Position numbers and translations under genes: made by a program
The notes under the pieces: generated by a model
The model's database searches: none
The model's input: only the letters and a program-made list of their open reading frames with translations
What the model was told of the DNA's origin: nothing
Shown here: positions 2,535 through 27,535 of the stretch, piece by piece
Layout: each line of letters opens with the position of its first letter
Numbering within the stretch: position 1 is the first letter of the stretch
Virus record (IMG/VR): IMGVR_UViG_3300017743_000084
Coordinates: 1 to 28,472 of that record
Direction: 5' to 3' (one strand)
Origin: a virus
DNA: 28,472 bases

Positions 2535-4358
2535 TTAATTTTTAAATCCCATTTTTTTCCAATATGCTGCAGTATATCCTTTATATGGCATATCTACTGG
2601 AGCTACAGGTACTTTTTGTGCATTAGGTTTTAATTTCGCACCCCTTGACCTTGCTTTTGTTGTACTAATTTGGTTTCCCATTTTATCACCTTCTTTTTTT
2701 GCATATATTTTTCTAAACCATTTATGGTGACATCTTGCTCCACCTTTATAAAGCCATATTGAATAGGTTGTTTTACCTGCACCTGCAAAATCAGGATTAA
2801 CAGCTTTATTACCCATAGCTACTATATCTTCCTTTCTATAAACTTTTTTAGCTTTCATCATTTGATAACAAAACTCTCTTGATTTATTTTTTCTTGTTTT
2901 ATAAGAAGGAACTCTTGTTGTGTAAACATATCTTACTAAAAAAGTAACATCTTTATAATCTTCTTGTTTACTTTTAACATCTTGCTCACTCTTTTTTGTT
3001 TTGTTAGCACGACCAGTAGAAACTAATTCAGTCTTTTCATTTAATTCTTTTATTTTATTATCTAATTCATCTTCAAGATCATAATCTACTTCAAATTCAT
3101 CTATTAAGTCATAATCATTTAATATATCTTTTTCAGTTTCACCTAATGATATAAACTCTTGTAAATTTTTATTAATTTCTTCTTTAGATAAATATACCTC
3201 TGGTGCTTTTTGTTCATACAACTTCACACCTGTTTCTTCTTCTCTTGTTTCTTGATCTTGAACATTGTCAAGGTCTGTAAATTCAAGCGGTTGAAGCGTT
3301 TTGAAGTATAAATTAAGCGAGATATTATTAAAAGATAGTATGTGGTCAAATGCGTCAATTAAAAGCGTCTGAAACGGTCTTATAACCGTGTTATCCATTA
3401 ATAGAGTAGCTGTCTTTAATTCATCTGCATTGTTTCCTAATCCTGATTGATCTTTAATACCTAATAGCATTGGAGAAACAACTCGATGAGCTACCATTAT
3501 TTTTTTAGTACTTTCTTCACTTAAGAATTGGTATTGTTGATGTGCGTCTGATAACTGTACAGGTTCTATGGATGCAGCACTTTCTGCATTATCATTAAAA
3601 ACTAATATAAACTTACCCGCATTACTTGACCCACTAAATTTTTGGTATATTCTTTGCTCAATAAGTTGTCTTTCCTCTGCATTAGGCGTTCCATTGTTAA
3701 AATTAATTAACATTGAAGGCGACATACCGTTCATTATGTTATTCAAATGGAAATTACTTATTTCTTCTTCTAGTTCTGCATATTGTAAACCTCCTTGATA
3801 ATCTACAGGACTATAATAGTAAAATCCTGCTTTGTAAGGTTTAACATATAATATCTCTATACTTTCTTTGCTTGTACCAAATGCAGGTATTCTTAAAGGT
3901 TTATCGTTAGGTTTGTATTTTGACCAGTCCTTAAAATAATAGTATGCGTCTATTTCGCCTTTGTCATTTGCTTTTTCAGCTCTTAATGTCTCTACAGGCA
4001 TATGTTCTACTTGTGCAATTTTACTTCTATCTTTAGAATAAATTACTTGTATAGCACACCCACCCATTAACTTTAAATCATAACAAAGTTTTCTAACGCA
4101 GTCATTATTAAAAAGAGAAATCATTTGCGCATATTGGTCAGGTTTTTTATTAGAGTTTGTAGCATCTAAACCTTTACCAAATATCATAGCAGATATACCG
4201 TTTATAACTGCATTGTTTGTAGGAGAACCATTGTATCTGTCAATTAAATATTGAAAGTAGTTGTTATCATCTCCGTAAGACACCCAGTCCTTATTATTAA
4301 TTTCCTTTATTTTAGGACTTGTATAGGTACTTAAATTAACTATTCTTAAATCATTCAT
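2535..4358 (-). CDS. Portal protein with a C-terminal extension
   Basis: This 607-residue protein forms the dodecameric DNA gate at the capsid vertex. The first ~370 residues read as an SPP1/PBSX-type portal: the N-terminal SYGDDNNYFQYLIDRYNGSP segment, a long helical and beta wing region, and HRVVSPMLLGIKDQSGLGNNADEL, a stretch typical of the portal crown and stem in Bacteroidota phages. Residues ~370-450 are charged and linker-like. The last ~135 residues (FLVRYVYTTRVPSYKTR..., CHHKWFRKIYAKKE, YKGYTAAYWKKMGFKN) form a separate Cys/His- and Lys-rich module that I take to be a fused minor-head (MuF-like) domain. The gene overlaps the upstream 121-residue gene by 4 bases (ATGA). Unusually, it lies downstream of the major capsid gene. 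Confidence 0.8.
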   Translation of the reverse strand: MNDLRIVNLSTYTSPKIKEINNKDWVSYGDDNNYFQYLIDRYNGSPTNNAVINGISAMIFGKGLDATNSNKKPDQYAQMISLFNNDCVRKLCYDLKLMGGCAIQVIYSKDRSKIAQVEHMPVETLRAEKANDKGEIDAYYYFKDWSKYKPNDKPLRIPAFGTSKESIEILYVKPYKAGFYYYSPVDYQGGLQYAELEEEISNFHLNNIMNGMSPSMLINFNNGTPNAEERQLIEQRIYQKFSGSSNAGKFILVFNDNAESAASIEPVQLSDAHQQYQFLSEESTKKIMVAHRVVSPMLLGIKDQSGLGNNADELKTATLLMDNTVIRPFQTLLIDAFDHILSFNNISLNLYFKTLQPLEFTDLDNVQDQETREEETGVKLYEQKAPEVYLSKEEINKNLQEFISLGETEKDILNDYDLIDEFEVDYDLEDELDNKIKELNEKTELVSTGRANKTKKSEQDVKSKQEDYKDVTFLVRYVYTTRVPSYKTRKNKSREFCYQMMKAKKVYRKEDIVAMGNKAVNPDFAGAGKTTYSIWLYKGGARCHHKWFRKIYAKKEGDKMGNQISTTKARSRGAKLKPNAQKVPVAPVDMPYKGYTAAYWKKMGFKN

Positions 4359-4720
4359 AGTATTATATAATCGTTATCGTGTGAAGCAGAAGTATCATCA
4401 AAATCATATTGACCACTATTAATATCATAGTAGTTGTTATTGTCTTGATTAATTGTCTGATCTGTACAAAATATTTTGTCTTTATATACTATATCGCTTC
4501 CTGACAATAGTGTCATTATATAATTTCTACCCTCTTTCAATACAGGGTTAAATGTTACTGATATAGTTCTAAAATTATCGCTTGTGCTTGCTGAAACATT
4601 ACTATTAAATATTTCATCATTTGCAGCTTCGTCGTGTACTTTTAAAGTATAAGAAGAAGTAAAAGCTCTAGGTATAACACTAATGTTTTGAGCTAAAGCA
4701 CTTGTCGTTAATATCTTCAT
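4355..4720 (-). CDS. Unknown structural protein, first gene after a late promoter-like element
   Basis: A 121-residue product with a beta-rich middle (SYTLKVHDEAANDEIFNSN..., FRTISVTFNPVLKEGRNYIMTL) and an acidic, Asn/Asp-rich tail. No family is recognised with certainty. Position between the tail-tube gene and the portal, and the ATGA coupling to the portal, suggest a small virion or head-vertex component. The middle looks like an immunoglobulin-like or fibronectin-like beta sandwich, such as those found in accessory virion proteins (inference). The start is fixed by the CGATATATA element that ends 3 bases before ATG 4720-4718. Confidence 0.6.
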   Translation of the reverse strand: MKILTTSALAQNISVIPRAFTSSYTLKVHDEAANDEIFNSNVSASTSDNFRTISVTFNPVLKEGRNYIMTLLSGSDIVYKDKIFCTDQTINQDNNNYYDINSGQYDFDDTSASHDNDYIIL

Positions 4721-4723
4721 ATT

Positions 4724-4753
4724 TATATATCGAAATAATAACGCTATTTTGTA
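4724..4753 (-). promoter_or_regulatory. Late-gene bipartite element, copy 5
   Basis: On the minus strand this reads TACAAAAT, 13 bases, CGATATATA, 3 bases, then the ATG at 4720. The same two boxes with identical spacing occur before four other structural genes. This copy sits immediately downstream of the terminator at 4762-4787, so it would restart transcription for the unknown gene, the portal, the connector and the fiber. A promoter function is inferred. Confidence 0.65.
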
Positions 4754-4761
4754 TGATAAAC

Positions 4762-4787
4762 AAAAAAAAAGAGGTCATAAGACCCCT
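4762..4787 (-). terminator. Intrinsic terminator after tail-tube gene
   Basis: On the minus strand: AGGGGTC, loop TTAT, GACCTCT (7 bp with one G-T pair), followed by a run of T. It lies 24 bases after the stop of the tail-tube gene at 4811 and just before the late element at 4724-4753. Confidence 0.85.
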
Positions 4788-4810
4788 TTCTTCTATTTAT
4801 ATACTACCTA

Positions 4811-5412: not shown

Positions 5413-6363
5413 TTATGCTAGAGTTAATAAAGCTAGGTCTGAACCGATACCATATTGTACTCCTGCTGTAAATCTCATAATAACTCTTACGTTTTGAGAC
5501 CCATCTAAATCAGCCATATCTAACAATTTAACTTCGTTATGGTCAGAAATTAATCCTGTACCAAAGTATAAGTTAGATTTTTGTCCTGCAACAATATGAT
5601 TTGAAGGCATACCTTGAGCTAAAACAACCTCAATACCGTCAAACGATAATGCGCTTCCTTTATCATACCATAATGAACCTCTGTTGTCAATACCTTGCGC
5701 ACCAACTCCATTAGCAGCGTATCCGCCTAAATGTCTAATGTAAGACTGAAATGCTATTGTAGGAACGTAGATTTTTACATCTTCTTTTCCGTAAACTGCT
5801 GAAGGTAATGAATCTACTACGTTTGTTAATAATGTAACAATATTAGTTGAACTAAATGCAGTTTCTCCACCATTTGAAGCATCGTTAACGTCTCCGTCAG
5901 CAGCCATTAAGACTGAAAATCCGTCAAATTCTCCTGCGTTTCCGTTTACACCTCCCCAGATGTTTTGCTCATTCTTTTCTGCTACTAAACCTGCAACGTG
6001 TCCGATAATAAAATCAGAAAACTTTGGAGGTAAATTTTGATTTAAAGAACTATATCCCATAGAAATTGCTTCCCAATCAGATACAAAATCTTTTTTACAA
6101 AGCTCAAGGTTTACTTGAAATTCCTCTGGTTGTAGGATTCTTTCAGTCAATGTTACTGTAGCTGTATCTGTAAAATCACAAGTAGCATCTTTGATTACAT
6201 TTGAATCCGTTGCTACCTTTTTGATTACATCCTTAAACTTTACATTTGGTTTAATTTCGATGTTACCATTGTCTAATGTAGGAGAACTTAAAAGGGCAGC
6301 AGAAATATACTTCCCTGAAAACTCACCTGCATATGTACTTGTTATACTTACTGTAGTCGCCAT
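5413..6363 (-). CDS. Major capsid protein
   Basis: A 316-residue protein that forms the icosahedral shell. It follows a scaffold-like gene and precedes a strong terminator, which is the usual place for the capsid gene. Recognisable stretches include ILQPEEFQVNLELCKKDFVSDWEA, an AENIWGG-like turn (KNEQNIWGGVNGNAGEFDGF), and VRVIMRFTAGVQYGIGSDLA at the C-terminus, which resemble capsid proteins of marine Bacteroidota phages (HK97 fold expected). The leader is a clean A/T repeat (AAATAAATAAATAAATAATT before ATG), the kind of A-rich leader that boosts translation in Bacteroidota, which lack strong Shine-Dalgarno use. No late element of its own; it is transcribed with the scaffold gene 20 bases upstream. 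Confidence 0.85.
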   Translation of the reverse strand: MATTVSITSTYAGEFSGKYISAALLSSPTLDNGNIEIKPNVKFKDVIKKVATDSNVIKDATCDFTDTATVTLTERILQPEEFQVNLELCKKDFVSDWEAISMGYSSLNQNLPPKFSDFIIGHVAGLVAEKNEQNIWGGVNGNAGEFDGFSVLMAADGDVNDASNGGETAFSSTNIVTLLTNVVDSLPSAVYGKEDVKIYVPTIAFQSYIRHLGGYAANGVGAQGIDNRGSLWYDKGSALSFDGIEVVLAQGMPSNHIVAGQKSNLYFGTGLISDHNEVKLLDMADLDGSQNVRVIMRFTAGVQYGIGSDLALLTLA

Positions 6364-6383: not shown

Positions 6384-6983
6384 TTAAAAATTTACTATTC
6401 TTTCTAATACACGGTCTTTTGTAGTTTTTCTTCTGTTTTGTGCGTACAAATAACCGTCTTTTTTTACTTCCCCTTCTGGGTTATGTTTTATAGGTTCAGC
6501 AGCAGGTTTAGATAATTCTTCTTTTACTGCTTCATCTATTTTTTCTTGTTCTGATAACATAGTAGTCATCGCAAGTCCGATTTCTTCTGCTTGTTCTTGA
6601 TCTTTTAATTCAAGTTTAGCTTTTAAATCTTCAATGATAGCTTTTAATTCAGATACTTCGTCTTTTGAAGCATAAACTTCTTCTTTCATTTCTTCTTCTT
6701 CTGAAGTAGCTTCTTCTTCTTCTACTTCTTCTTCCATTTCTTTAATGTCAGAAATTAGTCCTTCTTCAACGACAAGAATTCTACCATCTTCCATTGTATA
6801 TTCACCATTTGGAACTGGTACTTTATCTTCTTCTGTAACTATAAAAACTTCTTTATCTTTTTCAAACGATTCTGCTTCTAAAACAGTTCCGTTGTCTAAT
6901 TTCATTTGCTCTAGTTTAACTTCTTCTGAAAGTTGTACTCCTAGCAAATCTTTTACTTTGTTTAACATTTCTGTAGCTTTCAT
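6384..6983 (-). CDS. Scaffolding protein-like acidic coiled-coil protein
   Basis: A 199-residue, very acidic protein. An N-terminal part (~1-80, MKATEMLNKVKDLLGVQ... NGEYTMEDGRILVVEEG) is followed by a Glu-rich stretch (residues ~82-105), a heptad-like coiled coil (~105-160) and a basic C-terminus (QNRRKTTKDRVLERIVNF). Acidic coiled coil plus a basic tail directly upstream of the major capsid gene is the hallmark of capsid scaffolding proteins, whose basic tail contacts the capsid N-arm. The start is set by the late element that ends 3 bases before ATG 6983-6981. The large Glu-rich block means many frameshifted shadow frames; none is supported. Confidence 0.75.
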   Translation of the reverse strand: MKATEMLNKVKDLLGVQLSEEVKLEQMKLDNGTVLEAESFEKDKEVFIVTEEDKVPVPNGEYTMEDGRILVVEEGLISDIKEMEEEVEEEEATSEEEEMKEEVYASKDEVSELKAIIEDLKAKLELKDQEQAEEIGLAMTTMLSEQEKIDEAVKEELSKPAAEPIKHNPEGEVKKDGYLYAQNRRKTTKDRVLERIVNF

Positions 6984-6986
6984 ATA

Positions 6987-7016
6987 TATATATCGTTTAA
7001 GGTTATTTATTTTGCA
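6987..7016 (-). promoter_or_regulatory. Late-gene bipartite element, copy 4
   Basis: Minus strand: TGCAAAAT, 13 bases, CGATATATA, 3 bases, ATG of the scaffold gene. It shares the 11-mer AAATGCAAAAT with copy 3 at the same distance from the CGATATATA box. Would drive scaffold and capsid expression (inferred). Confidence 0.65.
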
Positions 7017-7787: not shown

Positions 7788-7955
7788 TTAAGATGTTCTA
7801 TATATTGAACCTATGCCCTGCGATCTTAAACTACCATCGCAACATTTAATACTATATGTATTTGTATCCCAACATAAACAAGCTCTATTTCCGCCTTTAG
7901 GACTTGTATAGCTAGGTATGTAATTTTCTCTAGATGTATTTGTTTTCCAATTCAT
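7788..7955 (-). CDS. Cysteine-rich 55-residue protein between protease and helical paralogs
   Basis: Short gene missed by length cut-offs. ATG 7955-7953 overlaps the TAA of the protease gene (TAATG), and the frame stays open for 55 codons to TAA 7790-7788. The product contains PKGGNRACLCWDTNTYSIKC followed by CDGSLRSQGIGSI, with four cysteines as CxC and CC. The CLC...YS..CC.GS..QGIG pattern looks like a conserved small motif that I associate with marine Bacteroidota phages, which would make it a real structural or accessory protein. Metal binding by the four Cys is possible but not shown. Confidence 0.65.
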   Translation of the reverse strand: MNWKTNTSRENYIPSYTSPKGGNRACLCWDTNTYSIKCCDGSLRSQGIGSIYRTS

Positions 7956-9151
7956 TATTGTATAGGTATGCAGTTAGGTACTAATCTTCCGTTCTTTCTT
8001 TTCATTCCGTATTGTTCGTACCCTGCTTGACAAGGTTCTTTTAATTCGTGATACTCACAAGGCATATACCAAATCTGTCCTTCAAATTCGTGTTCGTGTG
8101 TTCCTTCGCATCCTAAATCTTCAGCTATTTCTTCTGCTTTCTCTTTTGATGAATATGCTAATCTATCATCTATAACCGCATAATCATCGTTTACTTTCAT
8201 TGATGCTAATTCTAGTTCCCCTAGTTCTTTTAGTTTAGATGCACTCCATCTTAAACCTGCTTTACCTCCCCATAATAAATATGAGATAGTTCCACACGCT
8301 TCATTGTCTCCTTCTTTATAATATTCTTCTGCTCTTGATAAATAAGAGTACATTCTTTTAATTGTTTCTTTGCTTATTGGTTTACCTTGTGCTAATTGTT
8401 GCGCCCTAATTTTGCCAACATCAGTAGCGCATTTATTCTTTACTTTCTTATTTAGATCGATACCTCTTTTCGCATTGTTCTTTACTCCACTAGGATAATC
8501 TCTATAAGATTCCATTATCGTTTTTTTTCCGCTTTTATATCTTTTGTCGTTTCTTATAATACCTTTTACTTCTGACAATAATTCTTCTGCTTCAGCTTCT
8601 ACATCTGCAAAGTCATTTATTTGTTCTTTAGGTCTTTCCATTTTATCAGCAAAGTAACCTTCTATGCTAAATCCTTTTACCTTTCCTGTCTTTACATACT
8701 CATTCCATATATCTTCATTGTTTACTTTTACCGCACCCATCCAAGTACCAACTGGTAAATCCATATCATACTTTCTTGACTTATCGTGTACTTCATCTTC
8801 AATAATCCAAGATTCTACTAAAGACAAACCTTGTATAGAATGTTGATGTTCTAAAGTTGAATTGTTTTGGTTGCCTTTTTGTAAATAAAGTTGGGATGCT
8901 TTTAATACTGTATTTTTAGAAAAGTATATATAATATTCATCTTCTCCGTTTTTTCGATATATCGGCTTGTTAGGTATTAATAAAGCTCCCAATAGAATAC
9001 GCTTCTCTTTGTCTATTTCAGCTAGTTTTATTTCTTGTTGATTTTTTAAAGCGACAAAATCTTCTTCTATTGCAGGATTCTCTACTATACTAATCGCTTC
9101 TATTCCTGAAATCTCTTGATCTTCGTCTAAAATTAATTCGACTATTCTCAT
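7955..9151 (-). CDS. Prohead maturation protease (XkdF-like, S78_2 family) with two C-terminal modules
   Basis: A 398-residue protein. Residues ~1-170 form the protease: IEAISIVENPAIEEDFVALK near the N-terminus is the XkdF signature, EHQH at 101-104 supplies the candidate catalytic His, and SWIIEDE at 114-120 followed by LPVGTWMGAVKV and GFSIEGYF is the conserved core containing the candidate nucleophile. Residues ~215-315 (DYPSGVKNNAKRGIDLN..., KCATDVGKIRAQQLAQGKPI, CGTISYLLWGGKAGLRWS) form a separate helical module seen in several phage proteins. The last ~25 residues (GYEQYGMKRKNGRLVPNCIP) are another recurrent tail. Role: cleavage of scaffold and capsid during maturation. It starts 3 bases after a late element and lies downstream of the tape measure, an unusual place. 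Confidence 0.8.
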   Translation of the reverse strand: MRIVELILDEDQEISGIEAISIVENPAIEEDFVALKNQQEIKLAEIDKEKRILLGALLIPNKPIYRKNGEDEYYIYFSKNTVLKASQLYLQKGNQNNSTLEHQHSIQGLSLVESWIIEDEVHDKSRKYDMDLPVGTWMGAVKVNNEDIWNEYVKTGKVKGFSIEGYFADKMERPKEQINDFADVEAEAEELLSEVKGIIRNDKRYKSGKKTIMESYRDYPSGVKNNAKRGIDLNKKVKNKCATDVGKIRAQQLAQGKPISKETIKRMYSYLSRAEEYYKEGDNEACGTISYLLWGGKAGLRWSASKLKELGELELASMKVNDDYAVIDDRLAYSSKEKAEEIAEDLGCEGTHEHEFEGQIWYMPCEYHELKEPCQAGYEQYGMKRKNGRLVPNCIPIQ

Positions 9152-9154
9152 AAT

Positions 9155-9184
9155 TATATATCGTTTATTAAATTAAATTTTGCA
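9155..9184 (-). promoter_or_regulatory. Late-gene bipartite element, copy 3
   Basis: Minus strand: TGCAAAAT, 13 bases, CGATATATA, 3 bases, ATG of the protease gene. It fills the whole 34-base gap between the tape-measure stop and the protease start. Extended box AAATGCAAAAT is identical to copy 4. Confidence 0.65.
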
Positions 9185-15591: not shown

Positions 15592-16324
15592 TTAATTTTA
15601 TTTTTTATTTGTCTTGCTTCTGTGTCTGCTTTATCTTTCATAAACGATAGCATATATAAACATTCGTGTAAATTTAATTTAGTGATATGTTTAACTCTTG
15701 TAATATCCCCTTGAGAGAGTGCGTAAATTGATTGATACCAACCCCACTTTGTCGCAAACTGTCCTGTAGATGTGAGTTCGTTACCTCCTCCTGCTCCAAA
15801 TAATTCATCATAACTTTCGACAAGTCGATTCCTAAACGGTAAAAAAAAAGCATACTACTTAATACTGCATCCATTGGCATATCCTTCATTATGTCTTGAT
15901 CTTTTGCCTTATACTCCTCTATTGTATATTTGTCTTTTAGTTTGTTTGTAATAGGTCGATATAGAACAGCCATAGCATATTCCATAGATTCCCATTTAGA
16001 CAAATAGTTATCTAAATCGACATACTCTCCTAAACTCATATTGTCTAGGTTAGGTATAAAACCATATTCTATTCCATTCATTTTAAACTTCTGTACTAGG
16101 TTTGGTTTCTTCTCAAACATATCTGCAAGTATAGATGTTATTCTATTTACATCAGTAGCTCTCATTTTCATAGCATCTCCTAACTTTATACCACAAAATA
16201 TCTCCATCATTTTAGAAGCTAAAAAAGATTCATTCTCGTTCTGTTCTTGTATTTTTAAGAACTTCTGATATTGCCTTAAAGTGATTTCTGACAAATAATT
16301 AGGTATCGTAACTTTAACTCTCAT
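15588..16324 (-). CDS. Tail assembly chaperone, -1 frameshift product (gpGT-like, 245 residues)
   Basis: Predicted fusion made when ribosomes slip back one base at T_TTT_TTT (15848-15842) in a run of nine T. Frame 0 supplies 161 residues and the -1 frame (15842 to TGA 15590-15588) supplies 84 more, including LFGAGGGNELTSTGQFATKW, GWYQSIYALSQGDITRVKHI and a helical end (FMKDKADTEARQIKNKIK). The -1 frame has no ATG between its upstream in-frame TAG and the first Met deep inside the domain, so it can be reached only by frameshifting. It ends exactly at the next gene with an ATGA overlap. This is the architecture of lambda gpG/gpGT and of many siphophages, where the T part binds the tape measure. 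Alternative: a sequencing indel in the homopolymer, which would make the fusion the only product. Confidence 0.75.
15674..16324 (-). CDS. Tail assembly chaperone, short form (gpG-like, 216 residues)
   Basis: Frame-0 product. The start is ATG 16324-16322 (MRVKVTIPNYLSEITLRQYQ), not the upstream ATG at 16405: the longer frame would translate the terminator hairpin at 16364-16396 and the late element, whereas ATG 16324 lies exactly 3 bases after CGATATATA. The protein is helical, with MMEIFCGIKLGDAMKMRATD and WESMEYAMAVLYRPIT. The last ~57 residues after the T run (YRLGIDLSKVMMNYLEQ...) use frame 0 and end at TAA 15676-15674. In siphophages the short form is made in excess over the frameshifted form. 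It is the first gene of the tail module. Confidence 0.7.
   Translation of the reverse strand: MRVKVTIPNYLSEITLRQYQKFLKIQEQNENESFLASKMMEIFCGIKLGDAMKMRATDVNRITSILADMFEKKPNLVQKFKMNGIEYGFIPNLDNMSLGEYVDLDNYLSKWESMEYAMAVLYRPITNKLKDKYTIEEYKAKDQDIMKDMPMDAVLSSMLFFYRLGIDLSKVMMNYLEQEEVTNSHLQDSLRQSGVGINQFTHSLKGILQELNISLN
15841..15849 (-). promoter_or_regulatory. Slippery sequence for programmed -1 frameshift
   Basis: Nine T on the minus strand. In frame 0 the codons are CTT TTT TTT TAC, so the classic X_XXY_YYZ heptamer T_TTT_TTT occupies 15848-15842. Slipping by -1 makes the next codon TTA and opens the conserved chaperone C-terminus. Confidence 0.75.
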
Positions 16325-16327
16325 ATA

Positions 16328-16357
16328 TATATATCGAAAATTAAAAGCGATTTTAGA
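16328..16357 (-). promoter_or_regulatory. Late-gene bipartite element, copy 2
   Basis: Minus strand: TCTAAAAT, 13 bases, CGATATATA, 3 bases, ATG of the tail chaperone. It lies just after the terminator at 16364-16396, so it would be the first late signal for the tail module. Confidence 0.65.
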
Positions 16358-16363
16358 ATAATA

Positions 16364-16396
16364 CAAAAAAAAAGGAGATCCCTTTCGAGACCTCCT
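16364..16396 (-). terminator. Intrinsic terminator closing the small-gene cassette
   Basis: Minus strand: AGGAGGTCTC, GAAA tetraloop, GGGATCTCCT (10 bp with two G-T pairs), then a run of nine T ending in TTTG. Separates the tiny-gene cassette from the tail module. Confidence 0.9.
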
Positions 16397-17180: not shown

Positions 17181-18335
17181 TTATTGTATCGTGTATTTAC
17201 CGAAGTTAGGTCTAGATAGTATAGCTGAAGTTATATATCTCAAAGCATCGCAAATATGATTATGCGCATCTACTGGTATGTTAGTTAGCTTACCACTTTT
17301 ATCCTCTTTCCATTTATAATTTCTAAACTCTTGTATAGCATTATTACTATCTTTTGTTATATGTAGCTTATATCGTTTCAATAAATCAATTCCTGCGTTT
17401 ATACTATTATGTCCTTTTATACTAGGTCTTATATTCCATCCAGAACGTCTTAAGAAGTCATTTAAGCGAGGTTCTGCTGAATCTGCATAAATTATGTCTT
17501 TTCCAATTTTAAGTTGCTTAAAATGATTATGTATATCTTCTGCGGTCATTAGTGTTTTATATAGATGCTCTTTTATGTATAAACTATGATCTTTCTTATA
17601 TACTGAAACGTGAGCTGTAACATCATTTACATAGCCATAATCTACCCCACGTCCTATAAACTGTGCTTCTAATGGTATCTTATCTACTTCAATGTAATTA
17701 AATATTAGTGATTTACTTAATGCTCTTTCGCCTAATCCGTATATTCTCCAGTATTCTTCATCTGTTTCTTTTAATCGCTCTATTTCTGTTTTAATACTTT
17801 CTTCTAAAAAAGGATTATCTAAATAAGATGTTTGAAAGAAATCGCAGTCATCTCTAGGTATTATGTCATCGTAAATAAAATGAAAGCTGTCTGAAGGATT
17901 AAAATCCCCTATTACTTTTTCTTCTGTTCTAAATAATATTTGATTCCATTCTTCTTTTGATATTTCATTTATCTCATTAAAAAAACATAAGTGTCTTTTT
18001 CGACCTCTTAACTTTTGCGGTTGATCTAAACTTACAAACTCTATTAAATTACTGTCTAATCTATATTCAGAATTTGTCTTATTATGATTTGCTTCACTAT
18101 ACATATCTACAGCTTGTAATATGTCCAGAAAGTCCCTCATTACTGTAGCTCTTAATGCAGGGTATGATTTTCTACAGATTGTTATTATCTTATTGGAGTT
18201 GTTTGCACAGTAGTTAAAGATTATCCATAATAGAATGTTATATGTTTTACCGCTTCTAGTACCGCCCTGCTCTATTATTATTTTCTTGTCTGATTGTAAT
18301 AGATGCTTGTAAACTATATTAGTTTTTATCTGCAT
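17181..18335 (-). CDS. terL: Terminase large subunit (PBSX/Terminase_3 family)
   Basis: A 384-residue packaging motor. Walker A is GGTRSGKT at 24-31, Walker B is LCFFNE at 116-121, and the coupling segment lies near 145 (IGDFNPSDSFHFIYDD). The C-terminal RNase H-like nuclease has VDYGYVNDVTAH (Asp 232), IIYADSAEPRL (Asp 285) and PVDAHNHICDALRY (Asp 356 and Asp 363) as metal ligands. Length is slightly short compared with ~420-residue relatives but all motifs are present. It overlaps the small subunit by 17 bases. Packaging type (cos or pac) cannot be told from the sequence alone; the apparent circular closure would fit a permuted, headful genome or simply a circular assembly. Confidence 0.92.
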   Translation of the reverse strand: MQIKTNIVYKHLLQSDKKIIIEQGGTRSGKTYNILLWIIFNYCANNSNKIITICRKSYPALRATVMRDFLDILQAVDMYSEANHNKTNSEYRLDSNLIEFVSLDQPQKLRGRKRHLCFFNEINEISKEEWNQILFRTEEKVIGDFNPSDSFHFIYDDIIPRDDCDFFQTSYLDNPFLEESIKTEIERLKETDEEYWRIYGLGERALSKSLIFNYIEVDKIPLEAQFIGRGVDYGYVNDVTAHVSVYKKDHSLYIKEHLYKTLMTAEDIHNHFKQLKIGKDIIYADSAEPRLNDFLRRSGWNIRPSIKGHNSINAGIDLLKRYKLHITKDSNNAIQEFRNYKWKEDKSGKLTNIPVDAHNHICDALRYITSAILSRPNFGKYTIQ

Positions 18336-18681
18336 TGACTATTTTAACTTCAAAAGATTTCTTTTTGTTATCGTGCTTAATCTCTTGCTTTGTACCATTT
18401 AATCTATGAGCTTCTTCATCGCTACTAATCATTTTCATCGCTGCTATTTGTAAAACAGGAGAAGCATCTTGATTTATCCAGTTATTTAGTAGCTGTACTT
18501 TTTTACTTGTTCTGTTTTCTTCTATTCCCTTTTTTATAGCGTTCGATTCGTTCAGTTTTAGTTCATAAAAAGTAGTTTTGCCACAAGGTAAATATGCTAC
18601 TAAATGTTCTATAAACATTATATTATGTTTCTTTATTGCTTCAATAGATTGTTTTTCAAGTTCTTTTATATCGTATGCCAT
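18319..18681 (-). CDS. Terminase small subunit-like protein
   Basis: A 120-residue helical protein. The N-terminal half contains a helix-turn-helix (HLVAYLPCGKTTFYELKLNE), followed by helical LLNNWINQDASPVLQIAAMKM (oligomerisation) and a Lys-rich tail (DNKKKSFEVKIVNADKN). It lies immediately upstream of terL with a 17-base overlap, as small subunits do; they bind the packaging site and feed DNA to the large subunit. The start ATG 18681-18679 follows the late element by 3 bases. Assignment by HTH plus position. Confidence 0.75.
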   Translation of the reverse strand: MAYDIKELEKQSIEAIKKHNIMFIEHLVAYLPCGKTTFYELKLNESNAIKKGIEENRTSKKVQLLNNWINQDASPVLQIAAMKMISSDEEAHRLNGTKQEIKHDNKKKSFEVKIVNADKN

Positions 18682-18684
18682 ATC

Positions 18685-18714
18685 TATATATCGAAAAATA
18701 AATTAAATTTTTGA
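18685..18714 (-). promoter_or_regulatory. Late-gene bipartite element, copy 1
   Basis: Minus strand: TCAAAAAT, 13 bases, CGATATATA, 3 bases, ATG of the terminase small subunit. It occupies the entire gap after the SET-domain gene and marks the early/late boundary of the genome. Confidence 0.65.
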
Positions 18715-19029
18715 CTAAACGCTATACATTCTATATGTTACTAATATTTCTTCTCCTATTGCAATATCTTTTATTGTTTGTAGCATCAGCGTTCCACATT
18801 CTATTTTTCTACTTTCTGCGCAGCTTATAAGTTTAGCGTTTGGTGTTTTGCTATGATTTATAAATCCGCCTAGTGGAGTTCTTATAAAACCATTGTCAAA
18901 TTTACTATTAGATATATGCGTTATGCCTAGTATCGTATCTTTGTCTATATGTGATATAGCAAATAAACCTAGTCCGTCTATATTAGATTTTTTTATTGTT
19001 ACTTGTTTCGGTAAAGGTCTATACTTCAC
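18715..19029 (-). CDS. SET-domain protein (putative protein lysine methyltransferase)
   Basis: A 104-residue minimal SET domain. Visible motifs in order: N-terminal IDGLGLFA at 17-24 (the G-x-G strand that contacts S-adenosylmethionine), NHSKTPN at 58-64 (the NHS/C..PN motif), and GEEILVTY at 92-99 (the GEE...Y motif with the catalytic Tyr). Length is at the short end; pre- and post-SET cysteine clusters are absent, as in viral vSET-like proteins. It is the last early gene, overlapping the DnaA-like gene by 11 bases. Targets are unknown; host ribosomal or nucleoid proteins or a phage protein are possibilities. Confidence 0.75.
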   Translation of the reverse strand: MKYRPLPKQVTIKKSNIDGLGLFAISHIDKDTILGITHISNSKFDNGFIRTPLGGFINHSKTPNAKLISCAESRKIECGTLMLQTIKDIAIGEEILVTYRMYSV

Positions 19030-19429
19030 TTAATTCTTTTTTAGCCATCAAATCAACTATAGTAGCTATTTCATCTACATCTTCATTTGATATGTAGTTA
19101 ACTTTAAGTTTTATAAGTTCTCGTTTCGCTTCATTGTTTGCTTTGCCCATATCTGTAGTTATACAAGTAAGCCAGTCAATAAGTGTATTATTATAGTGTC
19201 TATACATATCCCAGTTCTTTATACTATGTAGAACTGTAGTATGGTCTGAAGATTTACCATTTTCTATGTAGAAGTTTTTAATTTCGTGTAAGTTCATCTT
19301 CTCATATTTGTATAGTACCATTGATAATAATGATCTTGCTTCTATGTATTCTCTTTTTCGTGTATTCTTAAATACATCTAGTTTTGCAAGTTTGTTTACT
19401 TGTTTTGCTATTTTCTTTGCTTTATTCAT
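19019..19429 (-). CDS. DnaA domain IV-like DNA-binding protein
   Basis: A 136-residue protein whose residues ~28-72 read like the DNA-binding domain IV of DnaA: an EARSLLSMVLYKYEKMNLHE helix pair, then IKNFYIENGKSSDHTTVLHS. The DHTTVLHSIKN stretch corresponds to the DnaA signature RDHSTVIHAxxK, whose Asp/His/Thr residues contact the DnaA box. There is no AAA+ ATPase domain, so it is not a full initiator. It may bind DnaA-box-like sites at the phage origin or compete with host DnaA. The gene shares ATGA with the upstream exonuclease-like gene and lies at the end of the replication operon. Confidence 0.65.
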   Translation of the reverse strand: MNKAKKIAKQVNKLAKLDVFKNTRKREYIEARSLLSMVLYKYEKMNLHEIKNFYIENGKSSDHTTVLHSIKNWDMYRHYNNTLIDWLTCITTDMGKANNEAKRELIKLKVNYISNEDVDEIATIVDLMAKKELSEV

Positions 19430-22047: not shown

Positions 22048-22178
22048 TATAATTCTTTTTTTTCGTAAACTGTATAACCATTTTTTTTCAAAAAAGTTAT
22101 ATATTTTTTAATCTTTTTTTCTCGTTTTCTAAAAGCATCAAAAATTTGGTTTTCAAATGCGTGGTGGTGTTTTTTCAT
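22047..22178 (-). CDS. 43-residue basic protein
   Basis: ATG 22178-22176 overlaps the TGA of the sigma-like gene (ATGA), and its TAA overlaps the next ATG (TAATG). Very basic: MKKHHHAFENQIFDAFRKRE, then KKIKKYITFLKKNGYTVY. Being coupled directly to the sigma-like gene, it could modulate it (speculation from position). No family recognised. Confidence 0.5.
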   Translation of the reverse strand: MKKHHHAFENQIFDAFRKREKKIKKYITFLKKNGYTVYEKKEL

Positions 22179-22660
22179 ACGTTTATATATTTTGTTAATA
22201 TTTTTTTTACCTTTTTGTAAGTATTATATAGTGAATAATAACTTATATTACTTTTTCTTGATAATTCGCTTATGTTCGTTCCTTCTTCTATTATTTCATA
22301 TACTTTTCTATCGTACCAGTACATATCTTTTAAAACGCTTTGGATTTTTTCATATACCATTTGATAGTTGTTGTGATCTTCTTCGCTAATCTCTATATCT
22401 TCAAATTCAATTAATTTTACTTTTGCTTTTTTTCTAATCAAATCTACATACAAACCTCTTAAAATTCTGTAGACATACCAATAATTAACTTCTGTATCAT
22501 TGTACATATAATCAACCCCCTTTTGTGAATTTTGTATTAATAACATATACATAGTTTGTACTAAATCTTCTACTTCTGTTTGTTTTAATCCACCAAAAGT
22601 TTTTACTATGTCTATCCATTTATTGTGTTTTTGATATGCTATTTCAACTGGTGTTTTCAA
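22175..22660 (-). CDS. Sigma-70 family-like protein (phage sigma factor candidate)
   Basis: A 161-residue protein with the outline of a short ECF-like sigma factor. Residues ~30-80 read as region 2: VEDLVQTMYMLL resembles the core-binding helix and NYWYVYRILRGLYVDLIRKK (59-78) resembles the -10-recognising helix (compare the Y..RI..N...D..RK pattern). An acidic linker (~85-97) follows. Residues ~118-158 read as region 4, a helix-turn-helix (NISELSRKSNISYYSLYNTY) for the -35 box. It lies in the early operon after the helicase. The five CGATATATA elements before late genes are its obvious candidate targets. Alternative: an HTH regulator without sigma activity. Confidence 0.6.
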   Translation of the reverse strand: MKTPVEIAYQKHNKWIDIVKTFGGLKQTEVEDLVQTMYMLLIQNSQKGVDYMYNDTEVNYWYVYRILRGLYVDLIRKKAKVKLIEFEDIEISEEDHNNYQMVYEKIQSVLKDMYWYDRKVYEIIEEGTNISELSRKSNISYYSLYNTYKKVKKILTKYINV

Positions 22661-23571
22661 AATGGTAGTTTTATTTGTTCAACCATTGTACTGTTTACAG
22701 CTTGACTATCTCCTATATTAAAACCTACATTATTAACTATACTTTTTACTCGTATAGGCGTGTCAATACCTGTTGGTCGCCCACCTGTATCAATATCTTT
22801 AACCTTTCTAATATGTATCATCGAATACATCCAATCAGTTGGGTGCTGAATATATCTGTGTATAACCATAAAATCATCAGCACGGTTCACGAATTTACCG
22901 CCACCTTCAACATCACTAGCCATAGGAGGTATAGGATGCCCTGCATATTCTTCATTTTGATTATGTTTTTTTCTTAATGCTTCTGTAGCTGCGTGAGTAC
23001 ATAGCCATATAGATACATTATGTGTTTTGCAGAATACTCTAAATTCACTTGTAGCTTGATAATCGTAATCGTGACCAGATATTCCTTTAAGCGTATCACG
23101 ATCTTTGACTAAAGAATTATATGGGTCTATAAGAAAACCTTGATAATCCCAAGCATTTTTAATAACAGTAGCCAAGTCAATAAGCGACTTATAAGTATGT
23201 AACTCATTAATATCAATAAACTTGAAATGCTCATATATAAAATCCTTGTGTTTATTAAATTCATCTTCTTTAATTTTGTTTATAGGTTTGACAGATAAAA
23301 ACTCAATTAGTTTCTTAATGATACTGTAAGGTTCGTTTTCACTAGAATATACTAACCATTTTATATTATGCTTAATTGAATATAGTAACATAAAAAATAA
23401 TGTTAGCGTTGTCTTTCCTGAATTTGCGTGTCCTAGCACTATATTAAAATTCCCATACTTAAAACGCAAATGCTCGTCTATAGTTGGGAATCCTAATTTT
23501 AAACCTTCTTTAACTTTACCAGTCCTAATATCTTGTAGTTTATTTATCTGGTCGTCAAAGTTTATTAACAT
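22657..23571 (-). CDS. DnaB-type replicative helicase (C-terminal domain only)
   Basis: A 304-residue RecA-fold helicase. Walker A GHANSGKTT at 47-55, SSENEP (76-81) as the glutamate-bearing H1a motif, Walker B FLIDPYNS (146-153), and H3-like IWLCTHAATEAL (188-199), with an RKVKDIDTG arginine segment near 255. The DnaB N-terminal collar is absent and the length fits a stand-alone motor domain such as that of T7 gp4 without primase. No separate primase gene is recognised, so the host primase may be used. It overlaps the sigma-like gene by 4 bases and follows the dATP/dGTP diphosphohydrolase-like gene by 1. Confidence 0.85.
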   Translation of the reverse strand: MLINFDDQINKLQDIRTGKVKEGLKLGFPTIDEHLRFKYGNFNIVLGHANSGKTTLTLFFMLLYSIKHNIKWLVYSSENEPYSIIKKLIEFLSVKPINKIKEDEFNKHKDFIYEHFKFIDINELHTYKSLIDLATVIKNAWDYQGFLIDPYNSLVKDRDTLKGISGHDYDYQATSEFRVFCKTHNVSIWLCTHAATEALRKKHNQNEEYAGHPIPPMASDVEGGGKFVNRADDFMVIHRYIQHPTDWMYSMIHIRKVKDIDTGGRPTGIDTPIRVKSIVNNVGFNIGDSQAVNSTMVEQIKLPF

Positions 23572-25528: not shown

Positions 25529-25631
25529 CCCTACAAAAAAGAAACTAAAATATTATCTGAACCAAGCATCGTCCATCTTTATTAGGTTATGCAAGTTTAG
25601 CTATAAGCGAAAGCAAATATATAAAAAAAAT

Positions 25632-27250: not shown

Positions 27251-27505
27251 TTAACTTTTTTCTTGTTCTTCTTTTATTTCCTCATAAGAACCATCTTCCA
27301 AGTTGATGTTTATTTTACCATACTTGTCTTCTAGTTCCTTTTTGAATTTATTATCTTCTTCTTGAATAGCAGCGTACGCGTGTAATAATCCGTGTTTCTG
27401 TACTTCAAGTTGTCCCAAGTCGTGCTTAATAGCAGCATACTTCTTTTGTGACTCTGTTAGTTTTTCAAGTTCTGCTTTTTCGATTATATTTTTTATTTCA
27501 CTCAT
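27251..27505 (-). CDS. 84-residue charged helical protein
   Basis: A Lys/Glu-rich helical protein (IIEKAELEKLTESQKKYAAI, then LGQLEVQKHGLLHAYAAIQE) with an acidic end (YEEIKEEQEKS). No domain recognised. It follows the 107-residue gene after 30 bases, a gap in which a TATATTTG box (27523-27530) without a matching TTTG is a weak promoter candidate. It is followed by the lysis membrane gene 4 bases later, so it belongs to the same transcript. Confidence 0.55.
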   Translation of the reverse strand: MSEIKNIIEKAELEKLTESQKKYAAIKHDLGQLEVQKHGLLHAYAAIQEEDNKFKKELEDKYGKININLEDGSYEEIKEEQEKS

Positions 27506-27535
27506 AGTATTAAATTTATATTCAAATATATTAAA

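Follow-up and report, generated by a model that had tools for sequence, protein, structure and literature searches.

The window analyzed here is a virus record of 28,472 bp in which almost every gene is located on the minus strand. It contains an open reading frame encoding 161 residues at the positions given in the original prediction (22175–22660), on the minus strand. Its TTG start codon, at position 22660, and the stop codon of a DnaB-like helicase gene overlap (TTGA), and this TTG is kept in close relatives. The conserved overlap suggests that translation of the two genes is coupled and that the downstream product is expressed at a low level. The features of the locus are as follows.

22175..22660, minus strand: gene of a very probable ECF-like sigma factor, 161 aa (open reading frame, TIGR02937 profile, predicted fold)
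22424..22660, minus strand: sigma-2-like domain, residues 1–79 (region 2.2-like EDLVQTMY and region 2.3/2.4-like helix 60–78)
22454..22456, minus strand: codon of Gly69, equivalent of the ECF Asn, N88 in sigma-H (alignment, covariation; PMC6411747)
22178..22372, minus strand: sigma-4-like domain, residues 97–161 (HTH, near-invariant recognition helix ISYYSLYNTYKKVK)
22657..23571, minus strand: DnaB-like helicase gene, constant neighbor of the sigma gene (gene call, helicase-seeded loci)

Residues 22–158 of the protein were aligned to positions 21–164 of the 165-position sigma70-ECF model TIGR02937 (NCBIfam) with an E value of 2.3e-6. The score (27.3 bits) is below the curated cutoff of the model (42.9). 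The same model was matched by 20 of 21 diverse members of the family, with a best E value of 5.6e-9. The window protein alone matched Pfam Sigma70_r2 weakly (E value of 0.025, below the curated cutoff), and a phmmer search of the PDB with this single sequence retrieved only unrelated proteins (E value of 0.1). Signatures typical of ECF factors, AEDLVQEMY and NYYYIFKTLRxLFLDLKRK, are found in the relatives. The region-2-like helix quoted in the original prediction, NYWYVYRILRGLYVDLIRKK, corresponds to residues 59–78.

The AF2 model of the protein (mean pLDDT 83.6, pTM 0.51) contains two four-helix domains, sigma-2-like and sigma-4-like, joined by a disordered, low-confidence linker (residues 83–96). 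How the two domains are placed relative to each other is not reliably modeled, as follows from the pTM value. The top solved structures retrieved by Foldseek with this model were ECF sigma factors (E value of 1.7e-5). Comparison of residues 1–76 with SigR (1h3l) led to a Z score of 8.3 and an rmsd of 2.4 over 70 residues, and comparison of residues 97–161 with region 4 of sigmaE on -35 DNA (2h27) led to a Z score of 9.4 and an rmsd of 1.9 over 65 residues. The Z score obtained with sigmaE 1or7 was 9.8. The limitation of the structural aligner is that Z scores below about 13 can be common among helical bundles. The protein is nonetheless assigned to ECF-like sigma factors because profile, motif, and fold agree, rather than on the basis of Z scores alone. 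We consider this assignment, which relies on the profile and the predicted fold, as very likely, binding to core RNA polymerase and initiation of transcription being inferred. Both regions announced from the sequence alone, the region-2-like helix and the region-4-like HTH, are real, and the predicted fold is that of sigma factors, not the unrelated fold that would have refuted the proposal.

The original prediction also comprised a two-box element preceding late genes, and this claim held. The window contains five exact copies of AAAAT-N13-CGATATATA, all on the minus (coding) strand, with a layout close to that of ECF promoters. In 1000 dinucleotide shuffles, the element was detected 0.002 times on average and once at most. 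Unbiased counting of dyads composed of a 5-mer, a gap, and a 9-mer identified AAAAT-N13-CGATATATA as the most repeated dyad in the window. By itself, CGATATATA was rejected as a motif since 17 occurrences, with one mismatch allowed, are not clearly above the 11.4 expected by chance. The signal is therefore carried by the two-box form. Every one of the five copies, designated below as late promoters although promoter activity is inferred, precedes a packaging or structural gene.

18685..18711, minus strand: late promoter 1, AAAAT-N13-CGATATATA, preceding the gene of the putative terminase small subunit (exact match)
18319..18681, minus strand: gene assigned to a putative terminase small subunit because it precedes that of the large subunit; its ATG lies 12 nt away from the C of CGATATATA
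16328..16354, minus strand: late promoter 2, preceding tail gene 15674–16324 (exact match)
15674..16324, minus strand: tail gene (phrog_166 tail, 5e-4)
16373..16396, minus strand: intrinsic terminator immediately upstream of late promoter 2
9155..9181, minus strand: late promoter 3, preceding the gene of the XkdF/S78-like head maturation protease (exact match)
7955..9151, minus strand: head maturation protease gene (Pfam Peptidase_S78_2, 4.5e-13)
6987..7013, minus strand: late promoter 4, before the scaffold-like and capsid genes (exact match)
6384..6983, minus strand: scaffold-like gene (position before the putative capsid gene 5413–6363; phrog_24921)
4724..4750, minus strand: late promoter 5, before gene 4355–4720 and the portal gene (exact match)
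4355..4720, minus strand: small late gene immediately preceding the portal gene 2535–4358
4763..4794, minus strand: intrinsic terminator immediately upstream of late promoter 5

The family search performed with the putative terminase small subunit (18319..18681) returned no match. The start of the tail gene is the ATG at position 16324, not that of a longer open reading frame initiated by TTG, and this start is conserved among relatives. A small SET-domain protein (Pfam SET, 1.7e-8) is encoded directly upstream of late promoter 1 (18715–19029, minus strand).

The sigma-like protein is encoded in more than 200 contigs. Records of the close clade harbor up to five or six sites each, all on one strand. 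In clades displaying about 45–50% identity in the sigma protein, the same late genes are preceded by CGTTATA, and additional variants of the -10 box (TGTTATA, TATTATA, and TTATATA) were detected in other relatives. The unbiased dyad count, applied to one genome of a CGTTATA clade, ranked AAAAT-N13-CGTTAT first. Across the late genes of the family, the two-box form is AAA[A/T]-N13/14-CG[A/T]TATA. In the L404 clade (G055–G059 and G063–G067), the A-rich box and CGnT of the late promoters are separated by one base fewer, and this change in spacer length is also concerted.

A search seeded with the helicase, and thus independent of the sigma protein, revealed the presence of the latter in 78 of the 78 loci that contained enough sequence to be testable. 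Relatives harboring the element but lacking the protein would have argued against the original prediction. The records that were opened and that contained several elements without the sigma gene are fragments cut before the early region encoding the helicase and the sigma protein; G001, G003, G008, G009, and G013 lack the sigma gene but are fragments that also lack the helicase gene. The sigma gene is also absent from G004, G006, G011, G019, G022, and G025, which were not opened in full. The remaining candidates were sigma-less phages (G007/G024 and related records), which were rejected as counterexamples since each record has one conserved site and no late genes, helicase, or sigma. We take this lone site to be a single chance match kept by descent, and the single-site records L087 and L178, which also lack the sigma gene, were read in the same way. 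Thus, the element-bearing records devoid of the sigma gene that were opened were fragments or unrelated single-site records, and the predicted co-occurrence was not refuted. In the unrelated phage group (G007, with L219 and L220; G024, with L227 and L228; L113, L150, L174, and L177), the lone AAAAT-N13-CGATATATA precedes the MAKDYEIFEG gene.

Scanning GTDB genomes with the family alignment did not identify any host or prophage copy of the sigma gene, and tblastn searches of cultured phages with the window protein and the L068 protein did not return any match. The portal protein encoded by the window is 37% identical to that of the Nonlabens phages P12024L/S, a similarity that indicates flavobacterial hosts. 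P12024L was found only through this portal protein, and not by tblastn with the sigma protein.

All three to four late promoters of any one genome carry the same variant of the -10 box. Among contigs with at least two typed late promoters, 38 had CGAT only, 15 had CGTT only, one combined CGTT and CGCT, and none mixed A and T at the third position. The identity of this base was associated with that of residue 69 of the sigma protein: CGAT was found with Gly (40 contigs), CGTT with Ser, Thr, or Asn (116 contigs), and TGTT with His (7 contigs). CGAT was never found with a residue other than Gly, nor Gly with a base other than A. No sigma column other than residue 69 was free of overlap between the A and T groups in the first tree set. 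The fallback register used for odd sites mis-typed a few contigs (L411, L412, L451, and L527). On inspection, the apparent exceptions, including those found in the strict register, corresponded to shifted ATGs or unusable sites and not to mismatched pairs.

The contigs are mostly fragments and are not independent samples. According to the tree, the pairing of Gly with A arose about three times, in the clade of the window, in the L404 clade, and in L491; the independent switches between A and T comprise two with starred support and a weak one. An independent-pairs sign test included too few switches to reach significance. Owing to this small number of independent events, the argument draws its weight from the concerted change of sites that are unlinked and from the position of the residue, rather than from a large p-value. 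In the neighborhood of L404, two to four late promoters with CGTTATA were found in each of nine records with Ser69 or Thr69, and G055, which has Gly69, has CGATATA at all four of its late promoters. TTATATA is present at four sites in G060 (L491, Gly69), and TGTTATA at three sites each in G061 and G062 (His69).

A second, longer sigma-like protein is encoded downstream of the first in the TGTTATA/His69 clade (L410:10544–11092; also L529, L533, L534, and L535). It has Gly at the residue-69 position and no Pfam match.

In the alignment with Mtb SigE, residue 69 falls on the Asn of RITTNLFLD, and Y62, I66, and residue 69 are spaced exactly like W81, I85, and N88 of Mtb sigma-H. N88 of sigma-H opens a base pair of the -10 element and has been proposed to help set specificity at this position (PMC6411747). 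In CG[A/T]T, the position opened by N88 is that of the third base. It could be argued that the covariation results from inherited linkage rather than from contact, the base having changed in response to other substitutions in sigma-2. This alternative is supported by the occurrence of only two to three independent switches and by the fact that residues 40, 44, and 75 also distinguish the A group strongly from the T group. For the latter reason, the causality of residue 69 is only inferred. Conversely, no other column separates the two groups without overlap in the first tree set, separate lineages that have Gly69 in common are not alike at residues 40, 44, and 75, and residue 69 occupies the position structurally predicted for the third base (PMC6411747). 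Linkage alone is therefore an unlikely explanation.

Another possibility is that some other regulator of phage or host origin (an activator, a repressor, or a further sigma factor of the host) binds the element, with which the sigma protein would be associated by shared ancestry only. The compared genomes do share most of their genes, and the window encodes a protein (19019–19429, minus strand) with a weak HTH of the DnaA C-terminal type (Bac_DnaA_C, 2.5e-5, below the cutoff). Against this possibility, the variants change together with residue 69 at several unlinked sites in about three lineages, this residue occupies the place at which the -10 element is opened in solved ECF complexes, and the layout (CGnT preceded at about 15 nt by an A-rich box) resembles that of ECF promoters. 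We regard binding by another regulator as very unlikely. Rather, the covariation indicates that the sigma protein and the late promoters very likely recognize each other, in the absence of any transcription data. The proposal that the sigma protein is the reader of the late element is thus supported beyond co-occurrence, by variants that are uniform within a genome and change with residue 69.

At 362 of the 381 late starts, the distance from the beginning of the NNNTA[TC] core to the ATG is exactly 12 nt. This spacing is fixed across unrelated genes and diverged clades, and the intervening bases vary. According to the sigma-H numbering (G at -11 and C at -12), the A of the ATG is at +1, and most late mRNAs should therefore be leaderless or nearly so. 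This conclusion is likely, although the start site is inferred and the prediction derives from ECF geometry. At the promoter of the terminase small subunit gene (TerS) in most relatives, there is no ATG at 12 nt and the start is located further downstream. The late transcripts could alternatively start elsewhere and have leaders, the 12-nt spacing reflecting compact packing or an A-rich translation context. In agreement with this alternative, leaders of more than 10 nt are present in 87% of the predicted transcripts of Flavobacterium johnsoniae (PMC6847099), a leader is tolerated at the TerS site of most relatives, and distances to the start site vary among promoters. Against it, the spacing is kept at nearly all of the starts enumerated above, in unrelated genes and diverged clades, and recurs at six of the seven sites of P12024L. 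We lean slightly against this alternative without excluding it, and retain leaderless or nearly leaderless late mRNAs as the preferred reading.

Early genes had been predicted to rely on host-consensus promoters, which is only weakly supported. The host-type element TAnnTTTG is present at the chance rate in the window (47 copies for 47.7 expected), with few well-placed copies.

27523..27530, minus strand: candidate host-type -7 element TATATTTG, before the early gene 27251–27505 (weak)
25614..25621, minus strand: candidate host-type -7 element TATATTTG, preceding the NinG-like gene (weak)

Regarding the early-to-late switch of the original prediction, the data support the existence of a second class of promoters that has a sigma factor of its own, the early timing of the sigma gene being inferred. 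Replacement of the host sigma factor, by displacement or inhibition, is beyond the data, which show only the second promoter class and the phage sigma.

The best explanation for these observations is that a phage ECF-type sigma factor directs the host core RNA polymerase to the five late promoters, with residue 69 setting the third base and mRNAs being nearly leaderless. We consider this explanation as very likely, although there are no transcription data for any member of the family. The sigma factor would be made from the replication cluster and would join the core RNA polymerase of the flavobacterial host; homology to sigma factors and the predicted fold are shown, and polymerase binding is inferred. 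The polymerase would then be directed to the five late promoters, the sigma-4 HTH reading the upstream A-rich box ([c]AAA[A/T]) and sigma-2 reading CG[A/T]TATA. For this step, the element and its co-occurrence with the sigma gene are shown, promoter activity and timing are inferred. Residue 69, at the -10 wedge position, would set the third base, Gly leading to A and Ser, Thr, Asn, or His leading to T; here, concerted covariation is shown and causality is inferred. Finally, the start codon, 12 nt after the C, would be at +1 by ECF geometry, and most late mRNAs would begin at the AUG or within a few nucleotides of it, from a start site that is inferred. A bolder reading, which we favor by a small margin only, is that of a large marine flavophage family with a natural code (Gly with A, Ser/Thr/Asn with T, and His with TGTT), in which all late promoters are rewritten together and leaderless mRNAs result from an AUG at +1.

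Phages phiEco32 and 7-11 are lytic phages that encode their own sigma factor, and the motif tAATGTAtA of phiEco32 marks late/middle promoters located before structural genes (PMC4331800). By analogy, the window family appears to work in the same way; it combines a phage sigma with its own promoters before the terminase, tail, protease, scaffold/capsid, and portal genes. The motif, the host, and the sequence differ, and tblastn of the window protein against the phage collection did not detect phiEco32, 7-11, or any other match at an E value of 1. The phages of the phiEco32/7-11 type carry an anti-sigma protein. Neither a residue-base code nor a fixed 12-nt spacing to the ATG is described for these phages in the relevant sections of PMC4331800.

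Cellular ECF sigma factors, such as Mtb sigma-H and E. coli sigma-E, share with the window protein the two-domain architecture, the fold, and the -35/-10 layout with CGnT (GTT for sigma-H). An aromatic residue and Ile are found in the -10 pocket, Y62 and I66 replacing W81 and I85 of Mtb sigma-H. In contrast, the -35 box of the window family is A-rich and not of the GGAAC type, the spacer is about 1–2 bp shorter, CGnT is followed by an extended TATA, and Gly, Ser, or Thr replaces the usual Asn. The window protein thus has the domain content of group 4 (ECF) factors (sigma-2 and sigma-4 only, plus a linker), their fold in comparison to solved structures, and a two-box promoter with a near-fixed spacer, which is cognate according to covariation, without any assay. 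It does not have Asn at the -10 opening position, which is occupied by Gly69 in the window and by Ser, Thr, Asn, or His in relatives. This Asn is the commonest residue in ECF factors but is not strictly required, and other cellular ECF factors deviate too.

The closest comparison is provided by the cultured phage P12024L. Its gp35 protein, which bears the annotation 'containing Sigma-70 region 2', is a distant homologue of the window sigma and was recognized, as a single sequence, by the family profile (E value of 2.6e-13). A link between gp35 and promoters was not found in the literature searched. As in the window, two-box late promoters are present in P12024L, where they have CGTT and precede seven genes, and the ATG is 12 nt from the C in six of them. 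P12024L differs from the window by Asn at the residue-69 position, where the window has Gly, with T as the promoter base, by an AAACAAA box 1, and by a CGTTAAT-like second box, the tail of the -10 box being mostly TAAT and not TATA.

Phage late sigma factors are already known (phiEco32), and the specificity code and the leaderless layout are likely to be new. The analysis identifies a putative late-gene switch in an abundant and almost uncultured group of marine phages, which provides a natural data set of sigma-promoter pairs. These pairs point to one residue that perhaps sets one promoter base, a position for which structural work had proposed, but not established, a role in specificity. The placement of the AUG predicts leaderless late mRNAs in hosts whose mRNAs mostly have leaders and lack Shine-Dalgarno sites. 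Since P12024L is a cultured relative harboring the same pair, the predictions on specificity and on leaderless mRNAs are directly testable.
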